From an uncultured Microcaldota archaeon (GTDB lineage: Archaea; Micrarchaeota; Micrarchaeia; Anstonellales; Bilamarchaeaceae), in assembly GCA_903835325.1 (NCBI GenBank), contig CAILMU010000219.1:1-33787 (forward strand): 33,787 nt of DNA, in the 5' to 3' direction. The notes beneath the pieces were generated by a model that worked only from the letters and a program-made list of their open reading frames with translations, searched no databases and was not told the origin of the DNA. Made by a program: the position numbers and the translations under genes. Of this stretch, positions 264 to 22,049 are shown one piece after another. The number at the start of each line of letters is the position of its first letter. The stretch's first letter is position 1.

Positions 264-986
264 TCACAAGCGAGTGCCTGCAGGCTTATCCTTCCTGTCA
301 GCTGCTTGAACGCCCGGCACAGGCCTCTTTGCGAAATCCTCCGGAAGCATTTCCCCGCTTTCCGCGCGGAGTTTCAGCGCCAAATCCGCAAGTGCGACCG
401 CCCTTCTCTCGAAAACGCCTTCACAGGAGTTTTTCTTGCTCCCAGCAAAACACTTTGCTTTCTGGTCTATGACCCTGAATGCGCCTATGGCTTCCTCCAA
501 TTTGCCCTTCTCGGCAAGTTCTGCCGCCTCCCTCAGCAAAGAGGCCAGCTCAGATCCGAGTATTTGCATTATCGATTTCCTGTCGGATTCATTTTGAGCC
601 GCACCAAGAACCTTACCGAGAACATCCCTCCCTTCCGTTTCACAAACAATCTGCTTTGCAAAATTTATGGCTTCCGTAAATTTTCCTGCCTTGGCATGGC
701 CCAGGGCCAGCACAGAGAGCTTCCAGTCATCCCTCTTTCTTTGCTCCCGGGTAGGGCCAGCTCCTGCAGATTCATTCCGATCAAAAACGCGCGTGAGTTG
801 TATCTCCCACTCATACATCACATAGGCAGCCGTTTCCAGGGTGTGCATGGCCTCCGGGAAAAGGCCTGCCCTTATCTGCTCTTCTGCGACGAAGCCCATG
901 TAATAATGCCGAGCGCCATCGGGGCAGTCTTTTCTAATGTCTGAAATCAGCTCATCAAACGCAGTTGGGATATCATCCAGTTCCAT
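264..986 (-). CDS. Hypothetical alpha-helical (TPR-like) protein
   Basis: 240-aa ORF with soluble E/K/A-rich composition and repeat-like helices (AEEQIRAGLFPEAMHTLETAAYV, GHAKAGKFTEAINFAKQIV, AELAEKGKLEEAIGAFRVI). Preferred over the antisense ORF 156-944, which has R/C/S/L-rich composition. Confidence 0.7.
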   Translation of the reverse strand: MELDDIPTAFDELISDIRKDCPDGARHYYMGFVAEEQIRAGLFPEAMHTLETAAYVMYEWEIQLTRVFDRNESAGAGPTREQRKRDDWKLSVLALGHAKAGKFTEAINFAKQIVCETEGRDVLGKVLGAAQNESDRKSIMQILGSELASLLREAAELAEKGKLEEAIGAFRVIDQKAKCFAGSKKNSCEGVFERRAVALADLALKLRAESGEMLPEDFAKRPVPGVQAADRKDKPAGTRL

Positions 987-1101
987 GTCATCACTATTGT
1001 GTTATTATTTATGTGTTAAGGTGCTTATAAATATTTGCATCATAGAATGCGCCAGATTAGAAAACAATTTTGCACGCGCGCGTTCGGAAACCCCTCCAAA
1101 A

Positions 1102-14632: not shown

Positions 14633-15337
14633 ATGACACTTATTCTCGTTGGAGCTGGGGTCGCCTTCGACTTGACGCTGGAAGGCCTGGAAGCCCTCAA
14701 AAGATGCGATGAAGCGTATATAGAGACATATACCAACCCGGCCCAAGATGGGGCTATTGAGCGGATTGAGGGCCTCTGCGGGAAGAATCTGGTGAGGCTC
14801 GGGCGCGACAGGGTCGAAAGCCAATTCCTGGTCGAGAAGGCGCGTTCTGCCGATATCTGCCTTGTCGTCTCGGGCGATCCTCTCACGGCAACGACGCATA
14901 TAACGCTCATCATGGATGCCAAATCCAGCGGTATCAGTGTCCGCACAATCCATAACTCCTCCATATATTCGGTCGCACCGGCCCGTTCAGGCCTCCAGAT
15001 ATACCGTTTCGGCAAGACTGCCAGCCTGGTCAATCCTAGGCCGAATTACAAGCCGGTATCATCGCTCGATATAATACGCCAGAACCAGGAAAACAACACA
15101 CATACGCTCGTTTTGCTCGATACAGAGCCCAAACCAATGGAAGCCAAGGACGCCCTGGATATGCTATCGGAGTTCAGCCATGCCGTCGTACTCTCAAGGC
15201 TGGCTTCGCCTGACGAGAAGATAACTTATGGAAAAATCGCTGATTTAAAAGGAAAAGGATTGGGGTCTCCCCCATTCGCGATTATCATACCCGGGAAGCT
15301 GCATCCTGTGGAGCAGGAATTCCTGGATATGCTATAG
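14633..15337 (+). CDS. dph5: Diphthine synthase
   Basis: MTLILVGAGVAFDLTLEGLEALKRCDEAYIETYT, VSGDPLTATTHITLIMDAK, HNSSIYSVAPARSGLQIYRFGKTASLV: Dph5/DphB tetrapyrrole-methylase fold. Confidence 0.95.
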   Translation: MTLILVGAGVAFDLTLEGLEALKRCDEAYIETYTNPAQDGAIERIEGLCGKNLVRLGRDRVESQFLVEKARSADICLVVSGDPLTATTHITLIMDAKSSGISVRTIHNSSIYSVAPARSGLQIYRFGKTASLVNPRPNYKPVSSLDIIRQNQENNTHTLVLLDTEPKPMEAKDALDMLSEFSHAVVLSRLASPDEKITYGKIADLKGKGLGSPPFAIIIPGKLHPVEQEFLDML

Positions 15338-15358
15338 AAATGAAAAAAGGCAGAGAAT

Positions 15359-15481
15359 TCAGCAAGCCTTGCCTTTCTTGCTTTTCTTGCCCTTGGCGCC
15401 TTTCACCATCTTAGACATGCCCAGAGGCTTCTTGACGGTCTTGACGACGCCGCTCACAAAGTTCTTCAAAGTCGATATCAT
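15359..15481 (-). CDS. 40-aa highly basic amphipathic microprotein
   Basis: MISTLKNFVSGVVKTVKKPLGMSKMVKGAKGKKSKKGKAC. SD ggaggg 6 nt upstream (15488-15493), TATA tttatata at 15550-15557. Not in the ORF track. Confidence 0.65.
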   Translation of the reverse strand: MISTLKNFVSGVVKTVKKPLGMSKMVKGAKGKKSKKGKAC

Positions 15482-15549
15482 TCATATCCCTCCTAACCCC
15501 AGCGCCCTAACGGCATCTGAGTATATGTTATTTATTATGGTCAAAAGGG

Positions 15550-15557
15550 TATATAAA
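15550..15557 (-). promoter_or_regulatory. TATA box for the 40-aa microprotein gene
   Basis: aactttatatac on the minus strand, ~70 nt upstream of the ATG. Confidence 0.5.
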
Positions 15558-15589: not shown

Positions 15590-16636
15590 TCAAAACAACG
15601 TGGTCTGCTTGCCCAGATCCATGAAGTTCCCGAACCTGATGCCTATCCGGCGGATATCATGTTTATCTTCGTCAAGGAATTGCCTGACCAGCGCAACCTT
15701 CTCTTTCCCCGTATCCTCGCTCCATGCTCTTGGTTTCTTAAACGAGAGCGAACGGGTATGCGTTTTCATGTCATCGGTTATGAATATTATCCCGACCGTT
15801 GAATAGGATTTCTTCATCTCGAGGAGCCACTGCTTGGCCTCTTTCTCAAGTTCATCCAATTTCGCGAGGATCAGGTACGGGTCCCTTGTCTTCTCCTTCA
15901 GGGTGCCTATCCTGCTCACTTCCTCCTGCTCCTTCTCCTCCCCGAGCATGGCAGGATAGCGTCCTGCCCCGAGGTCGATTAGCCAGGAGCCGGTCTTCTT
16001 ACCGAAGATCTCGGATAGTGCGACAGGATCCGCCTTCCCAAGGTCCTTGACCTTGATAATCCCAAGCTGGTTCAACGCCCCTGCAGTCTTCGGCCCTATC
16101 CCAGGCACTTTCTCGACCTCGGAATTCTCGATGAATGAGCGCTGCGCTCTCTCATCAAGGCTCAATAAGCCATCAGGCTTGCTCTTCGATGCTGCCATCT
16201 TGGCGCCTAACGGCGATGGCGCCACGCCGATGCTGCATCTGAGCGCGGTCGCCTGGATGATGGCATCTTTCAGACCCGGGGCTTTCTCCGCCGCCTGTGC
16301 ATCCTCCCCATTCCATTCGTCTATGCTCGCTTGTACGACGTGTTCGACACGCGAACGTATGATCGAATCGATTTGTGCCGACACTTCCGCATAATATTCC
16401 CTGTCCGCAGGCAGGAAAATCGATTCGTGGGGAGGAGCCCGTTTCTTCGCCTGTATTATCGGCATGCCTGCATGTATGCCGAGCGCCCTGCCAGGGTAGT
16501 TGACAGAGCTCACGACTCCGGAATCGGCGGTGCGTCCGCTATACATGCACACCACGATTATCTTGCCGCTCATCATCGGGCGGCGCCTCTCCTCGGCCTG
16601 GGCATAGAAATAGTCCATATCGATATGGATGAACAC
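15590..16636 (-). CDS. dinB: DNA polymerase IV (Y-family, Dpo4/DinB-like)
   Basis: MFIHIDMDYFYAQAEERRRP, NYPGRALGIHAGMPIIQAKK, SIDE, CSIGVAPSPLGAKMAASKSKPDGL, VPGIGPKTAGAL, C-terminal PIP box QTTLF. Confidence 0.93.
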   Translation of the reverse strand: MFIHIDMDYFYAQAEERRRPMMSGKIIVVCMYSGRTADSGVVSSVNYPGRALGIHAGMPIIQAKKRAPPHESIFLPADREYYAEVSAQIDSIIRSRVEHVVQASIDEWNGEDAQAAEKAPGLKDAIIQATALRCSIGVAPSPLGAKMAASKSKPDGLLSLDERAQRSFIENSEVEKVPGIGPKTAGALNQLGIIKVKDLGKADPVALSEIFGKKTGSWLIDLGAGRYPAMLGEEKEQEEVSRIGTLKEKTRDPYLILAKLDELEKEAKQWLLEMKKSYSTVGIIFITDDMKTHTRSLSFKKPRAWSEDTGKEKVALVRQFLDEDKHDIRRIGIRFGNFMDLGKQTTLF

Positions 16637-18130: not shown

Positions 18131-19867
18131 ATGGCAGGACCGAGATTGATATCCCCGCAGACTGATTCTCACAGCACTCACCCGCCTCAGGCGTACAAGC
18201 TCCTGGAACGGGGCCCGTTCCCTATCAGAAACGATGCGATGGCCGCGTATAAGAGCATCGAAGCCATCGGGCAGGGGAGCTCGGGCATCGCGAGGAAAGC
18301 GATTGATGGCGATGGCAAACCTGTCGTCATAAAGGAGCTCAAGACTATCCTGCTTCCCAACGAGAGCGAGGAGCGCTGCAAAGCCGTCATCGACACATTC
18401 GGCAAGGAAGCGTTGATACTCTCCAAGATTTTTCACCCCAACATACCGGAATGCATCGACAGCTTCGCAAGGGAAGTGGATGGCGAGATAAAATTCTATA
18501 TAGTCACAAGGTATGTCGAAGGAACGAATCTCAGGGAAAAAATGAAGGCCGGAGCGTTCAGCGAAGAGCAGGCAAAAGATTTATTGAAACAGCTTCTCGA
18601 AACTACAAGATACCTCCAATCGTTCGATAACCCGATACTTCATCGAGATATAAATCCAAGCAATGTCATTCTCGATAACAAGGGCAGGTATAACCTGGCC
18701 GATTTCGGCATCGCTGCGATACAGGCCCATGGAACGATAAACGGCACGGAATGCGGGACTGCCGGCTATGCCGCCCCCGAGCAGATTGTCCTTGGGAAAG
18801 CGTCCGCATCTTCCGAAGTCTATAGCATCGGCGCGACCGTCATCAGCATGCTCACGGGAAAGCCGCCTTACGATATGGGCAACGACTGGCAGGAGGATTT
18901 CATCAGCCACGCTGATATCTCGCCAGGGTTTGCAGCTGTCCTGAAGAGGATGGTGGCGGTGAACAAGGACGAGAGATGCCAAAACTCCGCTGAAGCGTCC
19001 CAAGCGCTGGAACATTCGGGCAAGGTTATCGCGCTTGCAAAAAGCGCATCAGCTTCATCTAACGATTCGCTCATGAAGGATTTGGATAACCTCGATAAGA
19101 GGAACACGAAGGCGAAAAAGGCATACGAGAAGGAATTGGGCCGAAAGGCCGCAGATATCCTGCACCTGATCAGGAAGATGCTGGACATGAGGAAGCGGAT
19201 TCAGGCGCCTCACACTGATTATCAGCATGGGGAAGACAGGCAATATATCGAGCTTTGGAACATGAGTTGCAGGGTGCATACGAAAGGGGAAAAAGACATC
19301 GTCAACATCGATCCGCACCCTGAGCGGGTTCTATCTGTTTGCGTCTCCACTCTGGTAGCCATGCCAGGCATAATAACATTGATGGTGGATCATTTTCAAA
19401 ACCGGATATTTACAAGTATCGGGTTTCTCTTTATCGCCGTCAGCTTGGCAACCTTCGCCGTGTCATATTCCATTGAGAATGCGGTGAACAGGTTCAACAA
19501 TATCCGTAAAATCAAAAGAGTCCTGCGCGAATTCCCTGGTACTCCGGAAACAGTGGTCAAGCTTGCGAAAAAGGTTCGCGCATCGATAGTCGAGAAGAAT
19601 AATGATTTAGATTCGAACACAAAGAAGCTCTCGGATAAAGGGCAGGCTGAGTCATCGGACTCCATCGAAAGAAAGACTGCAAATGCTAGTCCTTCTGACA
19701 ATTCTGGGGGAGCCATCATTAAAAGCTCTAAACCTAAGATCAGGGTGACGTCTATCACTACGCAAGACGGGCAGAAAAAGATTAGGGTGAAGCGTGAGGA
19801 AAAAGCGGAAGAAGCCTCGGCGGAGATTTCAAGCGACGGATCCAAGAAATCCAAGGGCTCCGCCTGA
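18131..19867 (+). CDS. Hanks-type Ser/Thr protein kinase with two C-terminal TM segments
   Basis: IGQGSSGIARKA, VVIKELK, ILHRDINPSNVILD, LADFGIAA, GTAGYAAPEQ, SIGATVISMLTGKPPY; TM at VLSVCVSTLVAMPGIITLMV and IGFLFIAVSLATFAVSY. TATA tttataaa shortly upstream. Confidence 0.92.
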   Translation: MAGPRLISPQTDSHSTHPPQAYKLLERGPFPIRNDAMAAYKSIEAIGQGSSGIARKAIDGDGKPVVIKELKTILLPNESEERCKAVIDTFGKEALILSKIFHPNIPECIDSFAREVDGEIKFYIVTRYVEGTNLREKMKAGAFSEEQAKDLLKQLLETTRYLQSFDNPILHRDINPSNVILDNKGRYNLADFGIAAIQAHGTINGTECGTAGYAAPEQIVLGKASASSEVYSIGATVISMLTGKPPYDMGNDWQEDFISHADISPGFAAVLKRMVAVNKDERCQNSAEASQALEHSGKVIALAKSASASSNDSLMKDLDNLDKRNTKAKKAYEKELGRKAADILHLIRKMLDMRKRIQAPHTDYQHGEDRQYIELWNMSCRVHTKGEKDIVNIDPHPERVLSVCVSTLVAMPGIITLMVDHFQNRIFTSIGFLFIAVSLATFAVSYSIENAVNRFNNIRKIKRVLREFPGTPETVVKLAKKVRASIVEKNNDLDSNTKKLSDKGQAESSDSIERKTANASPSDNSGGAIIKSSKPKIRVTSITTQDGQKKIRVKREEKAEEASAEISSDGSKKSKGSA

Positions 19868-21422: not shown

Positions 21423-21482
21423 AGAAAGAATTCTTAGGGTGATGGGGAATATTTATATACATGTTACACTATAATTAATAAC

Positions 21483-22049
21483 ATGAAACAAACCAGAGCC
21501 AGGCAGATCCATGATAGGCCGGCCGAGCTTCTCAGGTCGAATCCTGTCCGCGCGTTCTGGAAAGCCAGCCTGGATCCATTGGATTCAGGGCGCGCCGAAG
21601 GGGATGTGCGCATAACCATCGAATCCCCTGAATCCGACCATAGGAAAAGGGAGATCAGCTTCCGTTGCCTGACTATCGACGACAGGATGATGGTGCTCGG
21701 TATCGGCAAGCTTCTGGAAACGAGGCACGAGGATGATGAGATAGTCCAGACCCAGTCTGTGATCTCGTATGAAACAATACCGTTCAACATCGTCGAATTC
21801 CTAATAGACCTCAGAAACAACATCGAATCCCAATGGGAGCATATGCAGCGCTCTGTCAAAGGACGGATGATGAAGGCGGAGGGGATAGTCGTCGCGAGGT
21901 TCAAGCACATATTGACCCCGGAAGAGGATATGCGCATCCAGGCAGTGCAAACGCATATAATTGATCCTGAATCAAAAGAGAATGATGGCAAGCCCCAAAG
22001 CCGTGGAAGTGTGCGCCAATTGCGGCCAAGTCGCGAAGGAAGCGACTGA
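21483..22049 (+). CDS. Hypothetical protein
   Basis: 188-aa ORF preceded by atttatatac TATA at 21451-21460 (leaderless spacing). No family recognised. Confidence 0.6.
   Translation: MKQTRARQIHDRPAELLRSNPVRAFWKASLDPLDSGRAEGDVRITIESPESDHRKREISFRCLTIDDRMMVLGIGKLLETRHEDDEIVQTQSVISYETIPFNIVEFLIDLRNNIESQWEHMQRSVKGRMMKAEGIVVARFKHILTPEEDMRIQAVQTHIIDPESKENDGKPQSRGSVRQLRPSREGSD

Follow-up and report, generated by a model that had tools for sequence, protein, structure and literature searches.

A lysine-rich, nearly acid-free microprotein gene beside dph5 in Micrarchaeota, with a possible membrane-anchoring helix

The window, i.e., the whole stretch of 33,787 nucleotides that was analyzed, derives from a Micrarchaeota MAG. 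Between dph5 and dinB its minus strand carries a 40-amino acid microprotein CDS (15359-15481, stop codon included), translated as MISTLKNFVSGVVKTVKKPLGMSKMVKGAKGKKSKKGKAC in the ORF list. The preliminary description had given a 40-residue product with 12 Lys and no Asp or Glu, which agrees with this ORF letter for letter; the single Cys is at the C-terminus. The features of the locus are:

14633..15337, plus strand: dph5 (diphthine synthase; TP_methylase), the convergent neighbor, which adjoins every member of the family (Pfam PF00590; synteny)
15343..15348, minus strand: T6 run 3' of the stop, a likely T-rich terminator (sequence; T-runs follow the stop in several relatives)
15359..15481, minus strand: CDS of the 40-aa basic microprotein (ORF list; relatives in 13 other genomes; purifying selection)
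15362..15427, minus strand: codons 19-40, disordered basic tail, net +8 over 22 residues, with the C-terminal Cys (composition; AF2)
15428..15478, minus strand: codons 2-18, conserved amphipathic helix, ISTLKNFVSGVVKTVKK (alignment; muH 0.61; AF2)
15488..15493, minus strand: Shine-Dalgarno (SD) GGAGGG, 6 nt 5' of the ATG (sequence; GGAGG is likewise placed in most relatives)
15498..15521, minus strand: leader hairpin CUCAG-A-UGCC-GUUAG-GGCG-CUGGG, just 5' of the SD (RNAfold of the leader)
15526..15541, minus strand: conserved start-region block ACCATAATAAATAACA, family consensus ACCATAAATAATAACA (pattern across members)
15549..15557, minus strand: TATA box TTTATATAC (TATA at about equal spacing in the other clear-promoter members)
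15590..16636, minus strand: dinB, a Y-family DNA polymerase, the upstream neighbor in many members (Pfam IMS, IMS_HHH, IMS_C; synteny)

The convergent neighbor is a tetrapyrrole-methylase-family gene (PF00590) and is taken as dph5; its named relatives are all Micrarchaeota-type MAGs, one of them titled Candidatus ainarchaeum. The window also holds a complete archaeal 16S rRNA gene (1286-2779). No tRNA was found in the 33.8 kb and the 23S search gave no match at gathering threshold; the rRNA genes appear unlinked. This small archaeal genome also encodes, at 18131-19867 of the window, a protein with a Ser/Thr protein kinase domain (Pkinase, E=2e-40).

The SD described earlier (ggaggg, 6 nt spacing) is present. 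Its GGAGG core is complementary to the CCTCC in ATCACCTCC, with which the 16S gene of the window ends, and is thus a proper Shine-Dalgarno sequence. A second, out-of-frame ATG (ATGAATGATA) lies upstream of the start. Homology and SD spacing (6 nt to the downstream ATG vs. 2 nt to the upstream one) favor the downstream ATG, which was also the choice of the preliminary description. The TATA box attributed to the gene is likewise found where it was placed and belongs to a promoter that is conserved in relatives: a simple pattern search recovers TATA plus a ACCATAAATAATAACA-like block at near-constant spacing in most members (G014 by eye), and in G011 the TATA is present and the block is not clear. 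Transcription is predicted to start near the 3' end of the ACCATAATAAATAACA block, at about 15527-15531 on the minus strand. The block directly abuts the ATG in G001, G006 and G021, whose transcripts are therefore expected to lack a leader. Unrelated leaderless genes also have close matches at their ATG or near it, i.e., a kinase (G012), a methyltransferase-like gene (G004) and another gene (G005). We therefore rejected the block as a site for a gene-specific regulator and regard it as an ordinary start-region motif of the lineage. Two further copies in the window, each with 2 mismatches, lie at 1000-1015 (minus strand) before ORF 264-986 (minus strand) and at 21468-21483 (plus strand) before ORF 21483-22049 (plus strand); their positions are consistent with leaderless or short-leader starts. 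The pattern (TATA, ACCATAAATAATAACA at a short fixed distance, and the ATG directly after if leaderless) is useful for annotating genes of the genus. Hairpins occur in five leaders (the window's and those of G002, G004, G012 and G013) and are missing from several others, and thus are not a family-wide feature.

An initial protein search, covering 59 relatives, gave weak matches, several with the same start Met and an adjoining dph5. Examination of the 450 nt 3' of dph5 in 30 family genomes yielded 14 members, the window's copy counted: 13 from the 17 genus genomes (G000, G001, G002, G004, G005, G006, G008 and G010-G015) and one from a sister genus (G021). Profile searches of 84 order genomes and 301 phylum genomes returned no further credible member; since these order and phylum profiles missed the known members G011 and G021, profile-based absences are not absolute, and the positional check within the family is the stronger result. 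Weak genome matches (G036, G011:C11, G002:C2, G016:C10, G010:C21, G023, G028, G050 and G202) were rejected on the grounds of long frames, alignment across stops, partial profile cover or a true copy elsewhere in the genome. A tblastn search with the microprotein against phage sequences gave nothing, and no paralog was found in its own genome. The G011 copy (L041, 3' of dph5) has a good SD (AAGGAGGGATAA) and an ATT at the expected ATG position; it may either start at ATT or have lost its start codon.

All 14 members sit at the 3' end of dph5, usually inside the dph5-dinB gap and on either strand. In most members the two genes converge (dph5 > < microprotein), and dinB is often found on the upstream side of the small gene. 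The gene is inverted within the same gap in G001 and G006, lies 3' of dph5 on the same strand in G021, and has a different gene upstream in G002, with dinB more distant. The neighbors identified at the locus are dph5, dinB, DUF192 and methyltransferase genes (Pfam; synteny). The gene is missing from G003, G009 and G016; in G009, dph5 and dinB abut, leaving no space for it. G009 and G016 fall within the microprotein-bearing group in a dph5 tree, many forks of which are weak; this nesting points to gene losses.

Selection on the ORF was assessed at the codon level. Pairwise differences in the helix codons are 0.42, 0.32 and 0.68 at positions 1, 2 and 3, the third being the most variable, and pS exceeds pN in 78 of 78 member pairs, a result somewhat favored by the protein-guided alignment. 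The G012-G013 pair is ungapped and free of that bias; its in-frame dN/dS is 0.42 (Fisher p = 0.04), while the same DNA read in the shifted frames gives 1.29 and 1.22. Aligned pairs give 0.20 (G008-G015) and 0.13 (G005-G010; p<1e-4 each). The corresponding values for dph5 are 0.12 (G012-G013) and 0.16 (G008-G015), with saturation for G005-G010; the microprotein is thus under purifying selection, yet evolves faster than dph5. The preliminary description had named an unconserved frame and near-neutral ratios as grounds for dropping the gene; we found the frame conserved and the ratios below neutrality. The relatives, the conserved promoter and the dN/dS values bear out its proposal that this is a dedicated gene, equipped with a TATA box and an SD of its own. 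Judged from its sequence, the ORF at 15359-15481 is a genuine protein gene; the N-terminal pattern, composition and gene neighbor shared by its relatives, along with codon-level purifying selection, indicate more than chance.

Members are 33-61 residues long with a net charge of +9 to +16 (tabulated without G011), and acidic residues number zero or near zero. They share the core M-I-x-T-I-x-x-F-V-S-K-V-V-x-T-V-x-x-P, read as an N-terminal amphipathic helix, followed by a disordered Lys/Arg tail. The amphipathic helix and Lys/Gly tail proposed earlier for the window's copy are supported by its hydrophobic moment (0.61, shuffle p = 0.0002) and by an AF2 model with a helix at residues 2-17; this model of 40 residues is of low confidence (mean pLDDT 64), with block values of 71-77 for the helix and 53-55 for the tail. 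The 18-residue moment at 100 degrees ranges from 0.40 to 0.62 (shuffle p<0.03) in 13 of the 14 members, the exception being the sister-genus G021 (0.25, p = 0.35). The most conserved part is the I/V/F hydrophobic face of the helix; the polar face is composed of Ser, Thr, Gly and Lys with almost no acid. Helix net charge spans 0 to +5, with STGN contents of 44-50% and a charge of 0 or +1 in G004, G008 and G015, and of 12-38% with +4 or +5 in G000, G005 and G010. Across members the hydrophobic pattern and the charge of the tail are kept, and the sequence and length of the tail are free to vary. The terminal Cys noted in the preliminary description is real in the window's copy, but does not stand as a conserved single Cys: Cys counts range from 0 to 5, three members have none, and 8 of 14 have a C-x-C at or near the C-terminus (e.g., KCCKKCRC, KKCKCN). 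The inverted copies L036 (G006) and L037 (G001) have Cys at the helix/tail junction (SICCLITKIVGGSCSCK and VLGKSCSSSKK, respectively) and no C-terminal C-x-C.

The best explanation, which we hold tentatively, is a monocistronic, genus-specific microprotein composed of an in-plane membrane helix and a polyanion-binding tail. The TATA/ACCATAAATAATAACA promoter, some 45-50 nt 5' of the gene, would yield a monocistronic message, with translation starting from GGAGGG. Residues 2-17 are probably unfolded in water and would become an amphipathic helix lying in the plane of the cell membrane at its inner face, with the I/V/F face buried and the Ser/Thr/Gly/Lys face exposed. The disordered polycationic tail would then bind a polyanion close to the membrane, be it lipid phosphates, ribosome/RNA or DNA. 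Membrane binding, the ligand of the tail and the cytoplasmic location are what we infer here. The combination of the two faces with almost no acid favors binding to a negatively charged surface, and an acid-poor core rich in Val, Ile, Thr, Ser and Gly would be less suited to a stable soluble helix than to one that folds on an anionic surface. In the simplest reading, the helix would lie flat in the membrane and carry a polycationic tail. However, with the a/d-like spacing of I2-I5-V9-V12-V16, packing of the helix against itself or a partner protein is equally conceivable, and since helix charge varies from 0 to +5, electrostatic attraction is not uniform among members. A more specific version seems to us a long shot: in very small, histone-less archaeal cells, a genus-specific protein would tether nucleic acid, in the form of the nucleoid or of ribosomes, to the membrane, with the helix in the membrane and a protamine-like Lys/Cys tail holding DNA or RNA. 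On that reading, the Cys of members that end in C-x-C could carry a lipid, bind metal or form disulfides.

The main rival to membrane binding is a nucleic-acid-binding or condensing protein of a histone-less lineage, in which the protamine-like tail would contact DNA or RNA and the helix would serve in dimerization or oligomerization; we consider this possible, though unlikely. Charges as high as +9 to +16 in only 33-61 residues and Lys/Arg/Cys-rich tails such as KSRKCCKKCRC would suit such a role, and histone is absent from 17 of 17 genus genomes in a search in which three control genomes score. This absence is family-wide, however: 42 of 43 family genomes are without a histone match and only 14 genomes have the microprotein. 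Alba, present in 17 of 17 genus genomes, means that a chromatin protein is already available. Histone absence thus does not track the microprotein, which is therefore not a simple histone replacement, and we rejected such replacement as a driver. The conservation pattern also argues against nucleic-acid binding, since it is the hydrophobic helix face, rather than the basic tail, that is most conserved, and the Cys is not. By Pfam, the microprotein contains no histone or Alba domain; the Alba genes of the genus are separate. Histone-fold proteins were found in other families of the order, compared with none in 42 of 43 genomes of this family. The protein probably binds membranes or nucleic acids; between the two, we lean towards membrane anchoring.

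Less likely still is a role as an antimicrobial or as a type I toxin. A peptide secreted as an antimicrobial or directed at the membranes of a host, similar to a leaderless bacteriocin and lytic, would be in keeping with a cationic, almost acid-free amphipathic helix and with the finding that small peptides of archaeal proteomes can kill bacteria (PMC12408343). We nonetheless view it as improbable: the sequence has no apparent signal peptide, the neighbors (dph5, dinB, DUF192 and methyltransferase) include no adjoining transporter, immunity or modification gene, and the gene is single-copy, at a fixed housekeeping locus in divergent species and under purifying selection; moreover, the archaeal peptides in question, archaeasins, are Glu-enriched fragments of larger proteins, unlike the microprotein. 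The small size, amphipathic character, basic tail and hairpins 5' of the SD in five leaders are what might be expected of a type I toxin-like peptide under the control of either an antisense RNA or the hairpin in its leader. That reading is very improbable, given that the genome has no paralog, synteny is fixed with no mobility, many members lack the hairpin and three are predicted to be leaderless. Finally, a short ORF could arise by chance, and a conserved promoter might serve a non-coding RNA. This alternative has a negligible probability: selection is frame-specific with an excess of changes at third positions, members with clear promoters have either a well-spaced SD or a leaderless ATG, and stops interrupt the other forward frames in nearly all members. 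The locus gave no match in an Rfam search, and its RNA fold z-score is unremarkable (-1.45).

A 40-codon ORF that had gone unlisted can thus be described as a defined protein family: its locus is fixed, its promoter is conserved and selection on it has been measured. The DPANN phylum to which it belongs is nearly all uncultured. At this length the peptide can be synthesized, which makes membrane vs. nucleic-acid binding directly testable.

For five members, Pfam and NCBIfam gave no match up to E=10, and a PHROG search gave matches at E=1.4 and 2.2 only. PDB sequence matches to a caveolae-associated protein (E=1.2) and a surface layer protein (E=0.068) were weak and set aside. The family appears to be new, though its general kind is known; its design of helix plus Cys/Lys tail is unusual. 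Protamines are very short, acid-poor proteins in which Lys/Arg occurs with Cys in a fast-changing basic tail. The microprotein shares these traits, but its conserved part is an N-terminal amphipathic helix, its charge density is lower, and there is no sequence similarity.

Amphipathic lipid-packing-sensor (ALPS) helices are similarly short, with large aliphatic/aromatic residues on one face opposite a Ser/Thr/Gly face, and the resemblance extends to the few charges in G004, G008 and G015; polybasic membrane anchors, like the microprotein with its putative membrane helix, place a polybasic stretch beside a membrane-binding element (PMC7752083). The microprotein differs from both in being archaeal and stand-alone, at 33-61 aa, and G000, G005 and G010, with Lys on the polar face, look more like anionic-lipid binders than ALPS. 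Zinc-finger micro-proteins of Haloferax volcanii, which carry two C(P)XCG motifs, are also archaeal and <70 aa, with Cys as in many members (PMC6562870, PMC11241148); unlike them, the microprotein has 0-5 Cys (none in three members), and no member has a paired C(P)XCG motif. Archaeasins are encrypted antimicrobial peptides in archaeal proteomes (PMC12408343). The microprotein is similarly short, archaeal and cationic and may be membrane-active, but is a dedicated gene product. The FESNov catalog of families from uncultivated taxa includes 240 families of <50 aa with antimicrobial signatures (PMC10849945). The microprotein family resembles FESNov families in being small, restricted to one uncultivated lineage, conserved in genomic context, with dN/dS <1 and without known relatives; in contrast to the catalog, the present analysis describes the locus with its inversions, the promoter and the helix.
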